Under the pieces are notes generated by a model. That model had not been told where the DNA came from, searched no databases, and saw nothing but the letters and a program-made list of their open reading frames with translations. The position numbers and the translations under genes are program-made. DNA of 64,000 nucleotides from Salipaludibacillus agaradhaerens (GTDB taxonomy: Bacteria; Bacillota; Bacilli; Bacillales; Salisediminibacteriaceae): positions 3,064,869 to 3,128,868 of the forward strand of contig NZ_KV917378.1 in assembly GCF_002019735.1 (NCBI RefSeq), read 5' to 3'. Shown here in pieces: positions 47,419 to 59,878 of the stretch. Numbering within the stretch: the stretch's first letter is position 1; the number at the start of each line of letters is the position of its first letter.

Positions 47419-50400
47419 TTAATCAATTGATTCGAAAAATTGCTGCATCATACGATAAGATTGCTTTAACCTTTCCTCATACTCTGGAAGCTGCCAATTG
47501 ACCCACGTGTAACGAGCACTTTGCTTGTCACTAAAGTGATCTATAGTGGCGTTATCATTTGCCACTATAGCAGTTACGTCTAGACCATCAATCGTTATAG
47601 AGGCTTCAATCCCTTCTTCCCACATATCCCCGATAAATTCTTTCTGACTTGGGTCGCGAGCGTTTAATAGCATCCAAGGAATCCGGATTTCTTGGATGCC
47701 CGTTTCCTCTGAATAATAATAATCCGCTAACGAATCATAATCTGGATCTTGAGGGTCACCGACACCAAATCGAAGCTCTCCTGTTTCATAGTCTTCAAAT
47801 GGAAAGGTTTCTCCTGTGTCAGGTCTAATGAGTGCTTTATTTAATGCTAATCGAATGGGATGGAACGTCTTATGCTTATTTTTCATGTCATTCTCTGTGT
47901 AGTCAATCATGTCCAATCGTCCAGCATAGTCATAAAAGAAAGAATCGTAATCACCGACGATTTCAAGCGCTGCTTCTGTTTCACTCTTAATAGTCAGACG
48001 GAAGTCAGCTAGGAACGGCTGATCATCATTTCCTTCAATAGTCTGAATCGGAACACCTTGTTCTTCACGGACGCTTATATAAAGCTCATATTGATGGTCT
48101 TCCCAAAAGGCGTCACTTAACTCGTCAAAATGTGTTTTAATGTACACATAGCGTTCGTCATGATCCATCGTCATCTCCCGCATGTGGCCATCTTGCTTCT
48201 CAAAAAGACGATAACCATCTGTCCAATCATCTCGGCCATTCACTTTCACTTTCAATCGATCAAAGCTTAGGAGGCCGAATTGCTGCTCATTCGTTTGGGC
48301 ATTTGACCAAAAGGGACGCCTGTCTGCGTTATCATAATCCATCGTGTTCCATGTCCGCTTAAACCATTCATCTTGCCACGTAAACACAAGACCACCCAAC
48401 ATCTCCTCTTCTAAAATATCGTCGAACAAGCGAATGAGAATCTCCCCTTGCTCTGATTCCGATATAAATCCTTGATCCCAACCGAACGGGTTACGATGTG
48501 TTTGCCCCCGAGAGGCAGGGATGCCAAACTCGGCAATTAATACTGGCATCTCATGGGCAGCGTGGAGGTCGTGTAAATAGCCTGCATAGTTATTGGGCTC
48601 TCCTCGATGATCAATAAATTCTGTGTATTTTTCTTCTAAGTTTAAAAAATCAGGATAATAAGGATAAACGTGATAAGACGCAAACATGCCAGCTTCTGCA
48701 ATATCACTTTTTACTTTAATTGTATTTGGATCTACAGACGCCATATCCTCTTGTTCATTTGGCTCTGCCGGCTGATCAAGGTTGTCTGTCGTCACCCAGT
48801 TTGTGTAACTGAGCGGTCTCATACTGGCGTATTCTTCAATTTCATAACGGGTCAGGACCTCGAACTGTTCAGCGAGCCAAATTTCCATTGGAGCAGCCTC
48901 TTCTGTGTAGACATAGTCACCTTGATAGTCAGGCAAACCGTCATAATCAGTCGCCATTTGATCCACCATAAACGGGTACCACTCTATACCAATAATCCAT
49001 CCGATCACATACGGCGAAATGTCTATGTTGTACGTTCCTGAAGCATGGCCTGGCTCAGGTGGGACGACCGCATTCCCGTGTATGACGTCCACCACCTTTT
49101 TCATTTCAGCTTGAAAGGTTGCTACAATCTCTTCATCAAAGGCGTCCAGCGTTTCTTCTAATGGCTCCTCATCAATCCATATGCCATGCAACAAATAAAT
49201 AGGCTCTTCGGCAGTAAGGTTGTAATCATACAAGGCTTCATAAAAAGCTGGTGGATGGAGGGTATATATACGGATAGCATTTGCATTCATTTCTCCAATA
49301 AGTGTGAACCAACGGTCATACTCATCACGGACAATGCCCGCTTCACCAGGGAATGTTCCAGGCTTGCCCATGCCAAGGTTGACGCCTTTTAATGTGAGCA
49401 TCTCCCATTCACCGTCTTTAAACACTTCGTACATATTCTCGTGTATTCGGGCGGGATAGGAGATATTATGATGTTCCGCTTGATTCACACTAGTCACTTC
49501 CTCCTTTGTCAAGGCGTCATTCGCTGGATCAGGCTGTGCCATGTCAAAAATACGGGTCATCATCGGACTATAGGTGTTCCAAAAGAAGCTTGTCTCAACA
49601 GAAAACTGCTCTGAAGCTAAAAGTCCTTTTAGCTGCTGAAACCCTTTTGCCTGATAAAAGGAAGGGATTGCAGTTATATCAGCGTAATCACCGGCAAAAT
49701 AAAAAACATTCGCTTCATTTACATGATGGTGTAGGATAGCTGGAAAAGTAGCTGGAATGCCAGCATCAGCTAATGTTTGTTTGGCGTGATTCGTCAGATC
49801 CCACTCATAATAAGCGAGTACATGTTCTTCAGACTCAGGTTCAAGAATGTCGAACCAGTAATGGTAAGGCTGACTCACGGTTAAATCAAACATCTCAGTC
49901 CCTCTGTCAGTGAAAGCTAAACGGATATCAGGTGTGTTTACATCACCGTTTTCTTGAGACAGTACGATTACGTCATTTGTAAACTCATTAATAAGAATGA
50001 ATCCCTCACCATGATAATCCCAATTGTTTTCTTCGCCTTCGTAAAGGGATATGAGCCATTGGGGAACCTCCCCTGTTTCTGTGGACAGATCAATGGCATA
50101 ACGCCCTATCCAACCTGACCAATCCACCTGCAAAAAACTCGTCACACTTTCCCTAACGTCGGCACTCGTTGGAGATGCAAACGAATTAAATTCCATAACG
50201 AGATCTGTCCCGTGTTGTTCAACGGCATTTTTAATTAACTGCCACTCATCAAGTTGTAAGCCCCCGTTTATGAGAGTAGGAGGGGTATCATCATTTTCTG
50301 CCTCTTCTTCGTACCACGGCACCTCTTCTTGATAAACGCCGTACGTATCCGCCACATAGATCAAATCTTTTTCATTTAAATTTCCAGGGAAGGGCGTAAT

Positions 50401-50661
50401 CTCAAAAGTCTCCTCTTCTTCATTTGGTTTTAATCCGATGTAGTCTTCGGCAATTGTGTAACGTTGGCCGTTTGAGTGTGTAAAACGGTGATGGTTCAAA
50501 AGCCAGCTAATACTTCGGTGCTCTCGATAGCTTTCATCAGGAACAGTTTTATTAATAATCGCTACATCAAGAGGTCGTTCACTTGACAACGACCAAATAA
50601 AAACAGGTGATAAACAGATCATGACAATGATAATAATAGTACTTAAAATAAGTTTAATCAT
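47419..50661 (-). CDS. Large secreted glycoside-hydrolase-like protein
   Basis: 1080 aa. ATG 50661 follows AAGGAGATTAC. An N-terminal hydrophobic signal or anchor (about 3-24) with no lipobox. A 380-residue N-terminal region of unknown fold precedes a TIM-barrel-like region (about 410-800) with two candidate catalytic acids: Glu560 in IIGIEWYPF and Glu711 in VLIAEFGIPASRG, the pattern of clan GH-A retaining glycosidases. FTWQDEWFKRTWN continues the barrel. A beta-rich C-terminal region (about 830-1070) may bind carbohydrate. Very acidic, so extracellular. It faces the polysaccharide synthase locus, which suggests trimming or release of that polymer, as hydrolases near other c-di-GMP polysaccharide operons do. 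I could not assign a GH family. Confidence 0.75.
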   Translation of the reverse strand: MIKLILSTIIIIVMICLSPVFIWSLSSERPLDVAIINKTVPDESYREHRSISWLLNHHRFTHSNGQRYTIAEDYIGLKPNEEEETFEITPFPGNLNEKDLIYVADTYGVYQEEVPWYEEEAENDDTPPTLINGGLQLDEWQLIKNAVEQHGTDLVMEFNSFASPTSADVRESVTSFLQVDWSGWIGRYAIDLSTETGEVPQWLISLYEGEENNWDYHGEGFILINEFTNDVIVLSQENGDVNTPDIRLAFTDRGTEMFDLTVSQPYHYWFDILEPESEEHVLAYYEWDLTNHAKQTLADAGIPATFPAILHHHVNEANVFYFAGDYADITAIPSFYQAKGFQQLKGLLASEQFSVETSFFWNTYSPMMTRIFDMAQPDPANDALTKEEVTSVNQAEHHNISYPARIHENMYEVFKDGEWEMLTLKGVNLGMGKPGTFPGEAGIVRDEYDRWFTLIGEMNANAIRIYTLHPPAFYEALYDYNLTAEEPIYLLHGIWIDEEPLEETLDAFDEEIVATFQAEMKKVVDVIHGNAVVPPEPGHASGTYNIDISPYVIGWIIGIEWYPFMVDQMATDYDGLPDYQGDYVYTEEAAPMEIWLAEQFEVLTRYEIEEYASMRPLSYTNWVTTDNLDQPAEPNEQEDMASVDPNTIKVKSDIAEAGMFASYHVYPYYPDFLNLEEKYTEFIDHRGEPNNYAGYLHDLHAAHEMPVLIAEFGIPASRGQTHRNPFGWDQGFISESEQGEILIRLFDDILEEEMLGGLVFTWQDEWFKRTWNTMDYDNADRRPFWSNAQTNEQQFGLLSFDRLKVKVNGRDDWTDGYRLFEKQDGHMREMTMDHDERYVYIKTHFDELSDAFWEDHQYELYISVREEQGVPIQTIEGNDDQPFLADFRLTIKSETEAALEIVGDYDSFFYDYAGRLDMIDYTENDMKNKHKTFHPIRLALNKALIRPDTGETFPFEDYETGELRFGVGDPQDPDYDSLADYYYSEETGIQEIRIPWMLLNARDPSQKEFIGDMWEEGIEASITIDGLDVTAIVANDNATIDHFSDKQSARYTWVNWQLPEYEERLKQSYRMMQQFFESID

Positions 50662-50952
50662 GTAATCTCCTTCGTGGCTAGCAGGAGTATTTTAACGCCA
50701 GCTTAACCACACAAATAATCAATTATATATCCTTATTATAAGGCTAATGACCTACCTGAGACAGAGGCTTTTACGCTCCCTTAAATTGACAAATGGTAAG
50801 AAAGATCTAACGCATGCATGTCTGAGATTGTCACAAATCATGCTTTGACTTTTTCTAGAAAATCAACGATAATTAGTTTGGTTGATAGACGTTTTAACAC
50901 TAACGGTTGCACGTGTAACTGTTTTGATCATAATTAAAGGAGGTGAATACAG
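50662..50952. other. Leader and promoter region of the yidC unit
   Basis: 291 bp between divergent genes. Holds the promoter at 50845-50873; no other structure was recognised. Confidence 0.5.
50845..50873 (+). promoter_or_regulatory. Sigma-A promoter of the leader-yidC unit
   Basis: TTGACT (50845-50850), 17-nt spacer, GATAAT (50868-50873), about 80 bp before the leader ATG. Near consensus. Confidence 0.78.
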
Positions 50953-51327
50953 ATGATGGTAGAATTTTATCAAGATTTTCTTCCTGTCCTCATTACGGTT
51001 AGTTTATATATGACTTTTGCTGGGGCCCATATGATTCGTTTCATGGCCCATAATTCAGCAGCTGCTGGCCGGTTTATCATGCAAAAAAAGTTACCGTCTT
51101 GGCATACACAACTACTTCCAGAAAAAATGCTGGAAGATCGGCGCGGTGCCCGTCTCTCATGGTTGACGAGAATGACTGGCCGGAAGGAAGGGCCTGAAGA
51201 TGATGCTGACTATCTATCCTCGAAGGAAAGTTTATTACTAACACTTCGAGGAGGATTTACGTGGGAAAAACATCTGTATTCACTCGTCATAAAAAGGCCA
51301 TTGTTCTCATTGCAGCAGCCGTATTAA
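50953..51327 (+). CDS. MifM-like membrane arrest-peptide leader of yidC
   Basis: 124 aa. ATG 50953 (or 50956) follows a perfect AAAGGAGGTG. One N-terminal transmembrane helix (about 9-31), a basic linker, then RLSWLTRM (67-74) and an acidic cluster EDDAD (82-86). In B. subtilis MifM, as I recall, an R-I-T-T-W-I segment followed about 13 residues later by DEED causes ribosome arrest when the peptide is not inserted by the membrane insertase; order and spacing here are nearly the same. The acidic codons (51196-51210) lie just before the left arm of a hairpin that overlaps the yidC ribosome binding site. Unlike MifM, the frame continues 38 codons and overlaps yidC by 67 nt. Arrest itself is inferred. 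Confidence 0.7.
   Translation: MMVEFYQDFLPVLITVSLYMTFAGAHMIRFMAHNSAAAGRFIMQKKLPSWHTQLLPEKMLEDRRGARLSWLTRMTGRKEGPEDDADYLSSKESLLLTLRGGFTWEKHLYSLVIKRPLFSLQQPY
51217..51254 (+). promoter_or_regulatory. Hairpin sequestering the yidC ribosome binding site
   Basis: TCCTCGAAG (51217-51225) pairs perfectly with CTTCGAGGA (51244-51252), 18-nt loop. The right arm overlaps most of the yidC site AGGAGG (51249-51254), 6 nt before GTG 51261. A ribosome paused on codons 82-86 of the leader would cover the left arm and free the site. Confidence 0.78.
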
Positions 51328-52082
51328 TGATGCTGACGCTGAGTGGCTGTCAAGCAAGTACTGAGCCTATCGATTCTGAAACAGCAGGGTTCTTTAATCA
51401 TTTTGTTGTGTTTCCGTTCTCATTTGCGATTAAATTTCTTGCTGGGATTTTTAATGGAAGTTACGGATTATCGATTATCTTTATGACGTTTATTATTCGC
51501 TTGTGCCTGTTGCCGCTTATGATGAAGCAATATAATAATCAATTGACAATGCGGGAAAAAATGGCTGTGCTGAAGCCAGAAATGGACGAGGTGCAAAAAA
51601 AATATAAAGATAAGAAAAACAGGGAAGACCAGCAAAAAATGCAGCAGGAAATGATGGCTCTATACCAGAAGCATAACTTCAACCCTTTAACTTCAATGGG
51701 TTGCTTGCCGATGCTGATTCAATTTCCGATTCTTATCGGGTTTTACTGGGCCATTATGAGAACACCTGAAATAGCACAGCAAACCTTCTTATGGTTTAAC
51801 CTAGGGGAAACGGATATGATTCTGCCGTTTATTGCAGCTGGGGTTTATCTCATCCAGTTTAAAGTGTCACAAAAAGGCATGGATCCAGCTCAACAAAAAC
51901 AAATGGCGATACTAGGTTATATCACGCCGGTTATGATGGGTATGTTTTCATTCAATGTGGCTGCGGCTCTACCTTTATATTGGTCTGTGGGTGGACTTTT
52001 CCTCATCATGCAGACACTATTATTCAAATGGCTTTATCGTGAAAAGAACGAAGCATTAAAAGCAGTTGTTGCACCTAAATAA
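51261..52082 (+). CDS. yidC: Membrane protein insertase YidC2 (YqjG type)
   Basis: 273 aa, GTG start 51261 behind GAGGAGG. Lipoprotein signal with LSGC (Cys30). The Oxa1/YidC core of five helices runs from about residue 55 to 255: FIIRLCLLPLMMKQYNNQ contains the conserved Arg of the hydrophilic groove, EEM-type cytoplasmic hairpin about 95-130, FNPLTSMGCLPMLIQFPILIG, then GYITPVMMGMFSFNVAAALPLYW. Inserts membrane proteins alone or with Sec. The arrest-peptide-like leader suggests that this is the inducible second insertase, with a SpoIIIJ-type copy elsewhere in the genome. Confidence 0.93.
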   Translation: MGKTSVFTRHKKAIVLIAAAVLMMLTLSGCQASTEPIDSETAGFFNHFVVFPFSFAIKFLAGIFNGSYGLSIIFMTFIIRLCLLPLMMKQYNNQLTMREKMAVLKPEMDEVQKKYKDKKNREDQQKMQQEMMALYQKHNFNPLTSMGCLPMLIQFPILIGFYWAIMRTPEIAQQTFLWFNLGETDMILPFIAAGVYLIQFKVSQKGMDPAQQKQMAILGYITPVMMGMFSFNVAAALPLYWSVGGLFLIMQTLLFKWLYREKNEALKAVVAPK

Positions 52083-52087
52083 CAATA

Positions 52088-52133
52088 AAAAAGCCCGCTA
52101 TATCCTTGTATAAGGATGCAGCGGGCTTTACAT
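52088..52133. terminator. Bidirectional terminator
   Basis: AAAGCCCGCT (52090-52099) with AGCGGGCTTT (52120-52129), and an inner ATCCTT/AAGGAT stem. Between convergent yidC and queF. Confidence 0.9.
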
Positions 52134-54324: not shown

Positions 54325-56019
54325 TTATTTGTTCTCTGTATTGAACTTTTGAACCGAATGTTGTAATTGTTCAGCCATTTTAGACAATGATTCAGACGCA
54401 CTAGCCACTTCTTCCATAATAGCGGTTTGTTCTTCGCTCGTTGCAGAAACGCTTTGAATACTACTGGAAACGTCGTTGGATATCTCTGTTAATTCAGAAA
54501 TGGTTTTAACGTTAACGGAAATAGCTTCGTCCATCATCGCCAATGCTTCTTTAATGCTATTAACTCTGTTAGAGGAATCGATCGCTGTTTTTTCAATTCT
54601 TTCAAACGATTCATTAGCTTGATTAACAGCTTCAGTACCTTCCTTCACAGCTTGATACCCTTCAGTCATAGTTTCAACAGAAGCGATAGCTTGATTTTGT
54701 ACTTGTTCGATTTTTTCTTTAATCTGATTAGCGGCAGTTCCAGATTCTTCAGCTAATTTTCGTACTTCATCAGCTACGACAGCAAAGCCTTTCCCATTTT
54801 CTCCTGCTCGAGCTGCTTCAATTGAGGCGTTAAGAGCTAAGAGGTTCGTCTGGTCGGCAATACTAGTAATGATCGTTACAATTTCACCAATTGCACGCGA
54901 CTCTTCTTGCAGCTTTGAGACAACATCTGCAGATTGGCTAACATGCTCGTTAATCGCCGTCATATGGGTTATCGCTTGATCAATAGAAGTAGCGCCTTCT
55001 TTAGCAGCATGGGCCGTTTCTTCTGACATTTGAGCTGTGGTTGCCGCTTCATTGGCTACTTCGCCCATCTCAACAGACAAAGCTTTACAATAATCATTTA
55101 AGCCTTCCATACGTTCTTGTTGATCCCCTGATGAGGATGCGATCATTTGAATCGTTTCACTTACATGGGAGATGGATTCACTCGTCTGCTCGGAACTCGC
55201 AGAAAGTTCTTCCGATGTGGCAGCCACTTGGGTTGCTTTATCCCCAACTTGGGAAATCATCATACGTAAGTCACGAACCATTTTATTAAAATGTTCCGAT
55301 AGCTGGCCTAACTCGTCTTTAGACGTGACGTCAATATCCTCAATGTTTAAGTTGCCTTGTGCCACCTTTTCTGCATGGTCTGCCAGTGCTGTAACAGGTA
55401 GGCTGATTTTACGAGTAATGACAATAGAAATCACGATAGAGGCGATAATCATACCGCCAGCTAGGATGAGAGATATGATAATTCCCCGGGTACTAGCTGC
55501 ACTCACAAATGAGGCATCACGATCTAATCCAAAAATGGCCTCCGTTCCTTCAACTGGTGAGAAATAAGATTTAAATGTTCCGAATTCATCTTCATAGATC
55601 TCACTTATAGCATCCGTTCCTCCCATAGCTGTGTGCATATCATCAGAGAAGGTGTAGGTCTCCATCGTCTCATCGTATTGGCTTAAGGCAATGATATACT
55701 CTTCATTACCTGATTGACCCAATACGTAAGCATTTGCTACACCTGAAGACTCTTGGAAACTGTTAACCTCACTCTGAAGTTCTGCAAGGGCATTGCTGTC
55801 ACCTTCATGAGCCGCTTGGACTAATTGACTGTCAATACTATCGCTCATCAGGCTCATATTCACTGTCAAGGCGTCTTCAAAGCTAGGAATCACATAATCA
55901 TCAATTAACTGGCTGGAAAAGTAATATATGACACTGCTAAAGATGAGAGCAAAGAGAATCATAGGTCCCATAATACCAAGAAGAAACTTTTTAAATAACG
56001 ATGATGAAACGTTTAACAT
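54325..56019 (-). CDS. Methyl-accepting chemotaxis protein
   Basis: 564 aa. Helix 1 about 12-34, extracellular sensor about 35-180, helix 2 about 181-205, HAMP about 206-258 ([20 protein letters not shown]), then the long antiparallel coiled-coil signalling domain. The hairpin tip that binds CheA/CheW is intact: [20 protein letters not shown], then [20 protein letters not shown]. The start lies inside the 3' end of the PLP decarboxylase gene (7-nt overlap), so the two are co-translated. The operon is downstream of a c-di-GMP riboswitch. The ligand is unknown; an amino acid or amine linked to the decarboxylase is a natural guess. Confidence 0.92.
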
Positions 56020-57671
56020 GAGAACGTTACCTCACTTTCTGTTGATTTAGTTGCTTCTACCGCTTCTTGTATAAAGGTGATCACGTCAGGAATGTGATCT
56101 GTTTCCGTATAAGGTGAGATCGTAAAAAACTTAGAGACGTAAACCGGCTGCAATTCCCCATCATTTTTACATGGGACAAGATCAAATTTCTTTGTGTCAC
56201 CTAGGAAAATACGGGCTCTATGGGCACCGAAATATTCGAAGAGAGCTTCATTTCTTTTATTTGTTTCCATTATTTGTTCTTTCGTTAACTGGCCCTCTAC
56301 TTCCATTTCCCAATTGTTAGTCTTGCTATACAGCCTAAAGGCTGTCACAGGACCGGGGTTTAATGGATTCGTGACACATAACTCAGGTAAAGTTGCTTGA
56401 AGCTTTTCTCGAAAAACAAGATTGACTCTTACATAGTTAGCCAACAGTATTTGATAACCTTCTACCCCGAAAAGTTGTAACGCTGCCATAATGGCAATGG
56501 AGCTGGCCATTCGTGAGCATTCTAATGTGTAGCTTGTGTGATAGTCACCGTAACCTCTGTCACCGACATATGGTGATTCGGCAGCATCTAAATCAATTAA
56601 TGACAAATCTTCTTTGTTTTTCACTAAGAAAAGACTGGTTGCATAAGGTGTTTGACCGAGCTTTTGGAAATCAAAACATAAGCTGTCAGCTAAGTGTAAA
56701 TGCTGCATTTTAGAGGTGATTATCTGCAATCCAGTAAGCACCTTTTCTTCAAAGTTTAACGGATTTACCTTAAAATCGTACGCGTTAAAAAAGGCATAGA
56801 ATCCTCCGAGAGCTGAGTCAGCATGAATATGAACAGGAGGTAAGCCATGCATATCTGTAAGGGCATTTGTCGTATCTTTGATTGCCTGAATATTGTCAAT
56901 ACCAAAGTTATCAGTTGTACCAGTTGTAGCCACAACGTAAACAGGTTTACCTCCTTCTTCAATCACTTTTGCCATTTTAGAGGCAAGATCTTGTTCGTCC
57001 ATGGCGTGATCTCGCTTTGTACGAACCTTAATCACATGGCTTCGTCCAATACCAGTGGCTTCAGCTGATTTAATTAAACTATAATGGGCTTGCTCAGAGG
57101 AGAACACATACAGATTATCAGGAACACCGTGCTCCACTGCATCAGGACAATGTTTTGCAATAGCAAGGCGGAGTCCCGTAAAGACAGCTCCTTGTCCACC
57201 CCATGTTGTATATCCCCAGCTCTCATTGACATCAAAGCCAGCAATACGTGACATCATGGCAATGACTTTCGTTTCTGCCTCCGCACCGGCCGGACCATAA
57301 ACATCCCATAAATTATTCCCATTCAATAGGGAGGCTGTTAGTTGACCTATGAGTCCGGGAATACTTGCCATCGGAAGGACATTCGTCAAAAAGTATCGGG
57401 AATGATAGGGGTGCCCTGTCATTAAGCTTGTCATACTGTCTACTAAGTGAGACAGACTTTCACCCTGTAGGGGGACTTCAGCTGTTTGGATGAGCTGCTG
57501 ATAAAAATTTGTTTCACGCTGTTTCTCATGTCCTAAACTAGCGTAATCTGGACGCTTCATCCCATCCATTTTTTCTAGAAGAGTGGTAATTAATTGCAGG
57601 AAATTCTCTCTGCTTTCACGATTGCCATCTTCACTAGGGAAAAGCTTTTGCACGTCATTAAGTGATTTCAT
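56013..57671 (-). CDS. Group II PLP-dependent decarboxylase
   Basis: 552 aa. Fold type I PLP enzyme of the glutamate/aspartate/aromatic decarboxylase group: [19 protein letters not shown] (cofactor phosphate region), [43 protein letters not shown] with the Asp that contacts the pyridine nitrogen, and the probable Schiff-base Lys in [17 protein letters not shown]. Removes CO2 from an amino acid; the substrate is not clear. Such enzymes consume protons and can help in acid response or make signalling amines. First gene after the c-di-GMP riboswitch, coupled to a chemoreceptor. The start ATG 57671 follows GGAGGTTACTGA. Confidence 0.85.
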
Positions 57672-57699: not shown

Positions 57700-57845
57700 A
57701 TAAAAAAATCCCCACTTTAATAATGGGGGTCCGGTAACATACGTAAAACGCTAATATGTTAAGCAACTCAGCCATCTTAACTTTTTAAAAGCGTTAGACC
57801 TGGAGCTTTGCGTCCCTGTTTTTCAACAGGTTTGCCCATTATTAT
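57700..57845 (-). ncRNA. Cyclic di-GMP-I (GEMM) riboswitch with terminator
   Basis: Read on the minus strand from 57845. The conserved core GGGCAAACC is followed by stem CCTGTT-GAAA-AACAGG with a GAAA tetraloop, then GACGCAAAGC, the CCAGG and CTAA segments, and the second arm with AAGATGGCTGAGTTGCTT. This is the c-di-GMP-I aptamer. The expression platform is an intrinsic terminator, CCCCATTATTAAAGTGGGG followed by seven T (57728-57702), 31 nt before the decarboxylase ATG. It should make read-through into the decarboxylase-chemoreceptor operon depend on c-di-GMP; the direction (on or off) cannot be decided by eye. Confidence 0.88.
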
Positions 57846-58228
57846 TGTGTTATATTGAACATAATTAAAAGTATCACAATAGGACTAAAGTAATCAATAC
57901 ATTTACACATTTGTCACAAAATATGCCATTAAATGCTTGTAAGTCCTATCTTTAGGTCATGGATAATTAGTGAATGATTAGGCCTTTCAGAGGGGATGGC
58001 TACAAAAAAGAAATAAATGAAATTACGCAACGAGTGAAAAGTAAGGTCATCCATAGATATCCAGTCTTATTTATGATATAACGAATAATAGACATGTTAT
58101 TTAAACAGATTAGTTACTTTTGTCGACTGCTCAGTCGTATCGATGTTAATAAAGTGGCTCTAAAAATGTAGACTATTTTAAAGATGGTAATCATGAACAG
58201 AACTTTTGTGATAGAAAGGTGTAGAGAC
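57846..58228. other. Divergent promoter region (riboswitch operon / glnS)
   Basis: 383 bp, AT-rich. One short dyad ACGACTG-type (CGACTG 58124-58129, CAGTCG 58132-58137) lies about 90 bp before glnS and could be an operator. No T-box element was recognised. Confidence 0.4.
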
Positions 58229-59878
58229 ATGAGTGAAAATGTAAATAATTCATCACATTTCATTAAGTATATTGTGCAAGAGGACTTGGATGAAGGAACC
58301 TACGAGCATGTAGTGACACGGTTCCCACCAGAACCAAATGGCTATTTGCACATCGGTCACGCCAAATCAATCGTCTTAAACTTTGAGTTGGCAGATGCTT
58401 TTAACGGCAAGACGAATCTTCGGTTTGACGATACAAATCCATTGAAAGAAGACCAAGAGTTTGTGGATGCCATTAAACAAGATATTCAGTGGCTTGGTTA
58501 TGAATGGGACGGTTTATTTTATGCGTCTAATTACTTTGAAGAGATGTATGAACGTGCCGTATTGCTCATTAAGAAAGGCCTCGCATATGTAGAAGATTTA
58601 ACACAGGAAGAAATCCGCCAGTATCGGGGTACCTTAACTGAGCCAGGTAAAGAAAGTGAGTCACGAAGCAGGAGTGTTGACGAAAACCTTGCACTTTTCG
58701 AAAAGATGAGAAAAGGTGAATTTGCCAATGGAGAAAAGGTGCTTCGGGCTAAAATAGACATGTCATCACCGAACATTAACTTGCGAGATCCTGTCATTTA
58801 CCGAATTTCTCATACTGAACATCATAATACCGGTGACAAGTGGTGTATTTATCCAATGTATTCCTATGCGCACCCACTTGAAGATGCCATTGAAGGTGTA
58901 ACACATTCCATTTGTACGTTAGAGTTTGAGGATCAGCGGCCATTGTATGACTGGGTAGTGGAACATACAGAAATAGAAGGTACGCCAAAGCAAATTGAAT
59001 TTGCTCGGTTGAATTTGACAAATACGGTCATGAGTAAGCGTAAATTGAAACAGCTCGTGGATGAAGGCTATGTGGATGGCTGGGACGATCCGCGAATGCC
59101 TACCCTGTCAGGCCTAAGACGCCGTGGATTTACCGCTGATTCTATTAAAACATTTTGCCGCGAGATCGGTGTAAGTAAAGCGGACAATCTTGTAGACGTA
59201 CGCATGCTAGAGCATTTTGTTCGTGAAGATTTAAAATTACAATCACCGCGCACGATGTCCGTTTTAAAACCCTTGAAAGTAGTCATTACGAACTATCCAG
59301 AAGGGGAAGTGGAGTGGTTGGATGCTGAGGTTAATCCTGAGAATGAAACGATGGGGACACGGCAAATTCCTTTTTCACGGGAAATTTATATTGAGCAAAG
59401 TGATTTTATGGAGAACCCGCCAAAAAAATACTTCCGCCTCTTTCCAGGTAATGAAGTGCGTTTAAAGCATGCTTACTTTATTAAATGTGAGCAAGTCATT
59501 AAAGACGAGGAAGGCAATGTCATTGAGCTTCGCTGTACGTATGACCCAGAGACGAAGAGCGGCAGTGGTTTTACAGGACGTAAAGTGAAAGGGACACTTC
59601 ATTGGGTTGAAGCAACTCATGCGAAAGAAGCCGAATTCCGCTTATATAATTCCTTAATTGATGATGAAAAAAGCGGTGACGACTTCCTTGATGCCGTTAA
59701 TCCTGAGTCATTGGACGTTGTCCATGGCTATGTAGAGCCGAACATGGCTGACGTCAAAGGGAATGATAAATTCCAATTTTTCCGTCACGGTTATTTTAAC
59801 GTTGATCCGAAAGATTCTCATGAAGATAAGCTTGTCTTCAACCGAATTGTTGAGTTAAAAAGTTCATTTAAGTTATAA
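58229..59878 (+). CDS. glnS: Glutaminyl-tRNA synthetase
   Basis: 549 aa from ATG 58229 (AAAGGTG site); an in-frame ATG at 58184 lacks one. Class I synthetase: HIGH motif in [16 protein letters not shown] (residues 41-44), KMSKS-type loop [11 protein letters not shown], the GlnRS-specific [35 protein letters not shown], and two C-terminal beta-barrels of the GlnRS anticodon-binding type ([16 protein letters not shown]). The features favour GlnRS rather than non-discriminating GluRS. Most Bacillaceae make Gln-tRNA through GatCAB and lack this gene, so its presence suggests lateral gain. Transcribed alone. Confidence 0.93.

Follow-up and report, generated by a model that had tools for sequence, protein, structure and literature searches.

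A probable MifM-type leader upstream of yidC2 in Salipaludibacillus agaradhaerens and a conserved helix predicted to join its start site to yidC2 codons

The stretch of DNA considered here, called the window, comprises 64,000 nucleotides (nt) of the Salipaludibacillus agaradhaerens contig NZ_KV917378.1 (positions 3,064,869 to 3,128,868 of the forward strand). It carries a MifM-type leader open reading frame (ORF) directly upstream of yidC2, which codes for a secondary YidC insertase and overlaps the leader in another frame (Table 1). An initial annotation, made from the sequence alone, described a leader with a strong Shine-Dalgarno (SD) sequence, one transmembrane (TM) segment, RLSWLTRM at residues 67-74 and the acidic cluster EDDAD at residues 82-86; all of these are present as described, and the coordinates bear out that the leader continues for 38 codons beyond the cluster and overlaps yidC2 by 67 nt. 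The genome holds two genes matching PF02096, yidC2 and one elsewhere (L001) which sits between rnpA-like and jag-like ORFs, in what we take to be the usual place of spoIIIJ. The leader is thus placed as a MifM-type sensor is, directly upstream of the secondary yidC with the primary yidC elsewhere in the genome. The messenger is predicted to form two helices: P2, a hairpin over the yidC2 SD, and P1, a long-range helix in which the SD and start codon of the leader itself pair with early codons of yidC2. P1 is well supported by comparison between genomes, and its function we infer.

Table 1. Features of the leader-yidC2 locus in window coordinates (MFE, minimum-free-energy structure; bp, base pairs).
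Feature	Position	Strand	Remark
Leader ORF, MifM-type	50953..51327	+	124 codons, ATG start; stop codon 51325-51327
Leader SD sequence AAAGGAGGTGA	50936..50946	+	from sequence; near-perfect SD
N-terminal hydrophobic (TM) segment, leader residues 10-28	50980..51036	+	best 19-residue hydropathy window
Putative arrest core, leader residues 67-86, RLSWLTRMTGRKEGPEDDAD	51151..51210	+	core conserved in alignment A3
yidC2, secondary YidC insertase	51261..52082	+	GTG start; PF02096 E 1e-45
Leader/yidC2 overlap, two frames	51261..51327	+	67 nt including leader stop
P1 5' arm GTGAATACAGATG	50943..50955	+	3' half of leader SD, spacer, start codon; MFE
P1 3' arm CATCTGTATTCAC	51271..51283	+	yidC2 codons 4-8, within overlap; MFE
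P2 left arm	51212..51225	+	MFE; 9-bp core 51217-51225
P2 right arm	51244..51256	+	MFE; covers all of yidC2 SD AGGAGG (51249-51254)
Promoter-like site TTGACT-N17-GATAAT	50845..50873	+	matches at 10/12 positions
Likely intrinsic terminator 3' of yidC2, AAAGCCCGCT...AGCGGGCTTT	52090..52129	+	seen in sequence

The leader is very probably a homologue of MifM, because of its profile matches to leaders of the published type, the motif residues found in one of these (L162) and a comparison of profiles with hhalign. A profile with no row of the B. subtilis type inside (A4) finds the leaders of genomes G245 (locus L162) at E 6.7e-6 and G385 (locus L163) at E 2.1e-5, and both lie directly upstream of yidC. 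The arrest motif given for MifM in the available text of PMC7897499 is RIXXWIXXXXXMNXXXXDEED, and 9 of its 10 specified residues are present in the L162 core, RITTWIRKVFRMNSPVNDDED; L162, L163, L150 and L159 appear to belong to the B. subtilis type. The alignment with MifM homologues that the initial annotation had proposed as a check gave, for profile A3 against A7, an E of 2.6e-4 over 85 columns at a probability of only 42%. This alignment and the profile matches, with their same genomic context, uphold the proposal of a MifM-like leader in front of the second yidC.

In alignment A3 the conserved core of the leader centres on W-[IL]-T-R and RKE-x-PEDD. Set against the published motif, the window's leader has the R, the W, a hydrophobic residue after the W and the acidic run, with the W one residue closer to the R and MN absent. 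From the TM segment to the end of the first acidic run at residue 84 there are 56 residues, which is also the median for the overlapping class of loci (class A, below), both by crude hydropathy; the available text of PMC10987492 gives a median of 54 from TM segment to arrest site for MifM and describes the acidic region within residues 75-95, where EDDAD falls. The arrangement known from B. subtilis, with a stop a few codons past the arrest site and an intergenic stem-loop, is not that of the window; this marks the leader as a variant and is no bar to homology.

The leader was found in 8 of 8 genomes of the window's genus and in 25 of 35 genomes of its family at E <= 0.1, while at this threshold none of the 8 genomes of one genus of the family (code g2) had it with profile A2. 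A wider profile found it in 167 of 397 genomes drawn from the order at E <= 0.05, a count which includes weak matches taken unchecked and only part of which, among the weak matches, was fetched into the set of loci. When 41 of the order-level matches were first examined, yidC was seen at 39, and in 39 of these 39 the leader lay on the same strand just upstream. There is no family for the leader in Pfam or NCBIfam, a sequence search of the PDB gave a match at chance level only (E 0.64), and the leader was not found in one scan of viral contigs.

The initial annotation had also placed a perfect 9-bp hairpin with its right arm on the AGGAGG of yidC2. This hairpin, P2, is present in the MFE structure, where TCCTCGAAG (51217-51225) pairs with CTTCGAGGA (51244-51252) and the stem is extended by 4 pairs beyond a bulged A. 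The acidic codons do lie just 5' of the left arm, but the last of them (51208-51210) ends 6 nt before the 9-bp arm and not 7 as had been stated; judged from the coordinates, the left arm would be within reach of a ribosome that halts at the acidic cluster, as had been suggested. A stem-loop sequestering the yidC2 SD is conserved across loci: in local folds the SD is paired with a probability above 0.5 in 123 of the 124 scorable class-A loci (of 125) and in 73 of 73 class-B loci (of 80), against 73% (class A) and 79% (class B) of the folds made after a base-by-base shuffle of the upstream sequence.

The two classes come from a set of 210 loci given to one script, of which 205 were parsed; L022, L204 and L216 (no yidC start) and L080 and L086 (no yidC) were left out. 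In both classes the starts of leader and yidC2 were picked by SD score, and single loci may be wrong; there are near-copies among the loci, and the counts below are counts of loci and not of independent events. In class A (125 of the 205 loci, from 42 genus codes) the leader reaches 26-175 nt into yidC2. Most leaders of class B (80 loci, with those of the B. subtilis type among them) stop upstream of yidC2, the interquartile range of the distance to its start being 24-29 nt. The overlap, which the initial annotation had called unusual, is not confined to this genome. Leaders ending between -12 and +25 of the yidC2 start were seen in 6 of the 205 loci, and the idea of an absolute "forbidden zone" around this start was dropped.

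The reading frames reflect the same division. Where a class-A yidC2 lies in frame 2, its second codon begins with A in none of 115 loci, while class B has such a codon in 61 of 80. In part this follows from the definition of the class, because an A at this place would end the leader at ATGA; no parsed locus ends its leader in this way. The leader frame has no stop from the acidic run through the end of the P1 3' arm in 116 of 116 loci with P1 (one locus with P1 has no acidic run after residue 70 and was not counted), whereas the other two frames are open in 37 and 33; the same stretch is open in 14% of base shuffles.

The initial annotation suspected from the overlap that the read-out may be different, but its picture was incomplete, as the helix P1 was missed. 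In the window GTGAATACAGATG (50943-50955) and CATCTGTATTCAC (51271-51283) are exact reverse complements of each other, and the 13 pairs form in the MFE structure alongside P2; none of 100 shuffles folds as well (z -4.05 for the folded RNA as a whole). With a threshold pairing score of >= 12, which was fixed after a first look at the data, P1 is found in 117 of the 125 class-A loci (39 genus codes, one locus per genome) and in 1 of the 80 class-B loci. Its score was beaten by 0 of 40 single-base shuffles in 112 of 125 class-A loci and in 2 of 80 class-B loci, and with at least 7 pairs it appears in the full-length MFE structure of 110 of the 117 loci. The 5' arm covers the leader SD and start (median -15 to +1), and the 3' arm has a median position of +11 to +26 of yidC2, its start ranging from +1 to +20. 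In every one of the 117 class-A loci that have P1, the leader terminates only downstream of the 3' arm. Some 315 nt separate the two arms, whose duplex in the window is worth -21.7 kcal/mol; that of the leader SD with the 3' end of 16S rRNA is worth -17.9 kcal/mol. In four class-A loci (L184, L239, L245 and L248) the arms match over a short helix that scores less than the threshold, and the B. subtilis-type loci L162, L163, L150 and L159, with gaps of 29-33 nt between leader and yidC2, have no P1.

The support for P1 comes mainly from an alignment (A8) of 37 loci outside the window's family, in which the first locus of each genus was taken irrespective of its P1 score. RNAalifold, given no structure, returned 12 pairs for this alignment, all of them in P1 and 8 with changes on both sides. 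In A8, 92.6% of the helix cells are paired against 84.6% after shuffling, and 29 cells, where shuffles give 4.8, carry changes on both sides; each of the five measures of covariation lies above 500 of 500 shuffles. These shuffles ignore relatedness, which is preserved when the helix is slid along the alignment, and the slid versions are 26-52% paired. Alignment A6, a selected set with the best P1-positive locus from each of 34 genera, gives the same picture, but our conclusions lean on A8. Within the window's family (21 class-A loci) RNAalifold, likewise given no structure, recovered P1, 4 pairs of P2 and one hairpin of 3 pairs.

Two further comparisons were made on the arms themselves. With one locus per genus, chosen blind to P1 and scored in free register, cognate arms have a mean score of 15.65, while arms swapped between loci give 12.55 (sd 0.31, maximum 13.83 in 5000 permutations), and in 38 of 42 cases the cognate pairing is above the locus's own swapped mean. 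A set of 120 loci with 66 distinct arm pairs, which lacks L135 and L252 for want of an SD anchor and includes five further loci (L032 of class B and four that score below threshold), has 20 G-U and 7 A-C among 528 helix cells, with 34 other mismatches (p 0.0096 in a simple binomial test whose rows are not independent); the excess of G-U over A-C favours RNA over DNA as the material that pairs. Arm variants changed on both sides include GTGAATGCAGC/GCTGCATTCA, GTGAATCGATGAT/ATCATCGATTCAC, GTGAATATAAAAT/ATTTTATATTCAC and GTGAGTAAG/CTTACTCAC. We had considered that an invariant TCTGTATTCAC in the overlap might be kept by the two protein frames, and this was rejected when changes were found on both sides of the helix. 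Protein constraint cannot explain these changes, which pair a non-coding spacer with codons of yidC2.

Other traits go with the classes. A 9-nt SD match is found in 100 of 125 class-A leaders and in 10 of 80 class-B leaders, and the classes differ far more in the strength of the leader SD than in that of the yidC2 SD; if a helix competes for the SD, stronger leader SDs would be expected in class A. The lipobox cysteine of YidC2 could be located in 125 of 125 class-A and in 65 of 80 class-B loci, and is preceded by a median of 28 residues in the former and 21 in the latter; the about 7 additional N-terminal residues coincide with the region of the P1 3' arm. In a quick YidC2 tree of 93 rows a supported branch splits 46 class-A and 5 class-B rows from 41 class-B rows and 1 class-A row, and this tree requires 5 changes for the overlap and 4 for P1. 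Four independent pairs differ in overlap; P1 differs in the same way in 1, in the opposite way in none and not at all in 3, which is uninformative.

Our proposal is that the system is a MifM-type insertase monitor to which a self-gating RNA clamp has been added, with P2 as a lock on yidC2 opened by arrest and P1 closing the start of the leader; we give this reading an even chance. When insertase is short, the leader ribosome would halt near codons 84-88 (P site), reach the left arm of P2 and hold the hairpin open, so that the yidC2 SD is freed and yidC2 can be initiated. P1 would re-close the leader SD and start after every departing ribosome, and would be melted again either when a leader ribosome, having escaped from arrest, passes through the overlap or when a ribosome initiates on yidC2. 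The escaped ribosome would melt P1 and reopen the leader start because the leader ORF runs on through the 3' arm. Loading of the leader would be metered to about one ribosome per round with little queue behind the halted one, and a message with an untranslated leader would stay shut at both start sites. A more specific version makes the sensor self-licensing: its start is reopened only by an arrest-escaped ribosome crossing the overlap or by initiation on yidC2, ribosomes are loaded about singly, and the starts of sensor and target are physically tied. We put this version forward tentatively and would sooner expect it to fail than to hold; if true, the logic has been kept in over a hundred species.

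Several points weigh against the clamp. Arrest, the presence of P1 in cells and the gating are all predictions here. Locus L032 of the window's family keeps P1 (about 20 nt) though its leader stops before yidC2, and there a leader ribosome therefore cannot reset P1, while L074, L078, L142 and L243 have the overlap and no P1. As overlap and P1 go back mainly to one origin, their co-occurrence is not independent evidence, and they may only have been inherited together. Both the open-frame and the second-codon counts are partly definitional, because class A is defined by the overlap. If ribosomes initiate on the leader often, P1 could be mostly open. Finally, P1 lies also close to the yidC2 start, and yidC2 may be its target. 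In its own right L032 offers a natural experiment on the contribution that the overlap makes.

If yidC2 is the target, P1 would mainly shut the yidC2 start region, the leader start being merely its pairing partner, and yidC2 would be under a double lock which needs an arrested ribosome to open P2 and a ribosome on the leader start to open P1. The 3' arm, at its median position, lies at the edge of the footprint of an initiating ribosome, and P1 and P2 flank the yidC2 start within one MFE structure. It is, however, the 5' arm that sits on the leader SD, spacer and start, while the start of the 3' arm varies; the class difference in SD strength is much larger for the leader than for yidC2; and the passage of the leader stop beyond the 3' arm in every class-A locus with P1 is left unexplained. 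We regard the double lock as unlikely, though P1 might serve as a second lock on yidC2 in addition to closing the leader start. The same passage of the leader beyond the 3' arm has no reason either if P1 is a timer on the nascent messenger, which closes the leader once the first yidC2 codons have been transcribed and so confines most translation of the leader to messages still being made. The maturation gene of MS2 and the fold-back inhibition of hok are parallels for such timing, and the distance between the arms and the stability of P1, which exceeds that of the leader SD duplex, would suit it; we think this improbable.

It could further be held that the system is an ordinary MifM in which P1 has no role in translation and is a DNA operator pair, an element of mRNA stability or a by-product of coding. 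A single protein could bind to the two inverted copies, and the GGTGA/TCACC part of the match is favoured because the SD is fixed. The excess of G-U over A-C speaks against DNA, and the changes on both sides, which join non-coding spacer to yidC2 codons, go beyond protein constraint; both are compatible with a role in mRNA stability. Taken together these forms seem to us quite improbable. That the leader does not arrest at all, hairpin and overlap giving a simple translational coupling, is most improbable, for although several positions of the core depart from the published motif (MN is absent and the spacing differs), the MifM homology, the acidic cluster at 82-86 and the class-A median distance of 56 from TM segment to acidic run (crude hydropathy), against 54 in the available text of PMC10987492, speak for arrest.

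With regard to the surroundings of the locus, the promoter-like site upstream of the leader is weak evidence alone, because the region holds 7 such sites where 5.3 are expected. The likely terminator after yidC2 is absent from the list made by a terminator scan with a loop limit of 8. On the opposite strand the leader is adjoined by an ORF of 1080 residues (47419-50661, -) with no Pfam match at 1e-4. Further away a c-di-GMP-I (cyclic diguanylate) riboswitch (57759-57846, -; 80.5 bits) lies about 90 nt upstream of a gene for a pyridoxal-dependent decarboxylase (56013-57671, -; PF00282), the end of which overlaps a gene judged by eye to be chemoreceptor-like (54325-56019, -). Control of such a pair by c-di-GMP looks unusual. 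An ORF for a class I Glu/Gln-tRNA synthetase (58184-59878, +; PF00749, PF03950, PF20974) looks like a glutaminyl-tRNA synthetase, an enzyme which is uncommon in Bacillaceae.

Among known systems, the long-range (Min Jou) helix of MS2 and the fold-back of hok are cases in which a distant segment shuts a start site and translation can reopen it. In the system proposed here it is the sensor's own start that is closed, by codons of its target gene, in an operon of an arrest peptide. In MifM, CliM, SecM and VemP, as far as the available texts go, a local structure masks the SD of the target and arrest opens it (PMC10987492, PMC6037786, PMC7897499, PMC13183943). The closest likeness is to MifM-YidC2 (YqjG) of B. 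subtilis, with which the window shares the N-terminal TM segment, the acidic arrest region, the secondary yidC next door and the SD-sequestering stem-loop, together with profile homology; B. subtilis mifM has 95 codons, a stall few codons before the stop and an intergenic stem-loop (available text of PMC6037786), whereas the window's leader has 124 codons, ends inside yidC2 and has its start paired to yidC2. CliM-yidC2 of Clostridia is likewise an arrest peptide monitoring YidC with a stem-loop over the yidC2 start, but no long-range mRNA helix was found in the available part of its description, where the one "long-range" refers to electrostatics (PMC13183943). SecM-secA and VemP-secDF2 resemble it in being monitoring substrates whose arrest opens a structure masking an SD; they have other sensors and motifs, and pairing of the leader's own start was not found in the available descriptions (PMC10987492, PMC7897499). 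In the main text available for these two papers the word "overlap" does not occur, nor does "long-range" in PMC10987492. A helix between leader start and target gene, or a self-licensing logic for arrest peptides, was not found in searches of open PMC text, and an earlier description is possible. If P1 gates loading, the system would be an example of how a cell can keep ribosomes from piling up where a stall is programmed, and of an evolution of MifM-type systems that has reached the output side as well as the peptide; P1 and P2 can be mutated separately, which makes the logic directly testable. Set beside these systems, the one described here is very probably homologous to MifM and has a new output architecture, in which, in the overlapping branch, a conserved second and long-range helix appears to tie the start of the sensor to codons of its target and the sensor ORF crosses this helix.
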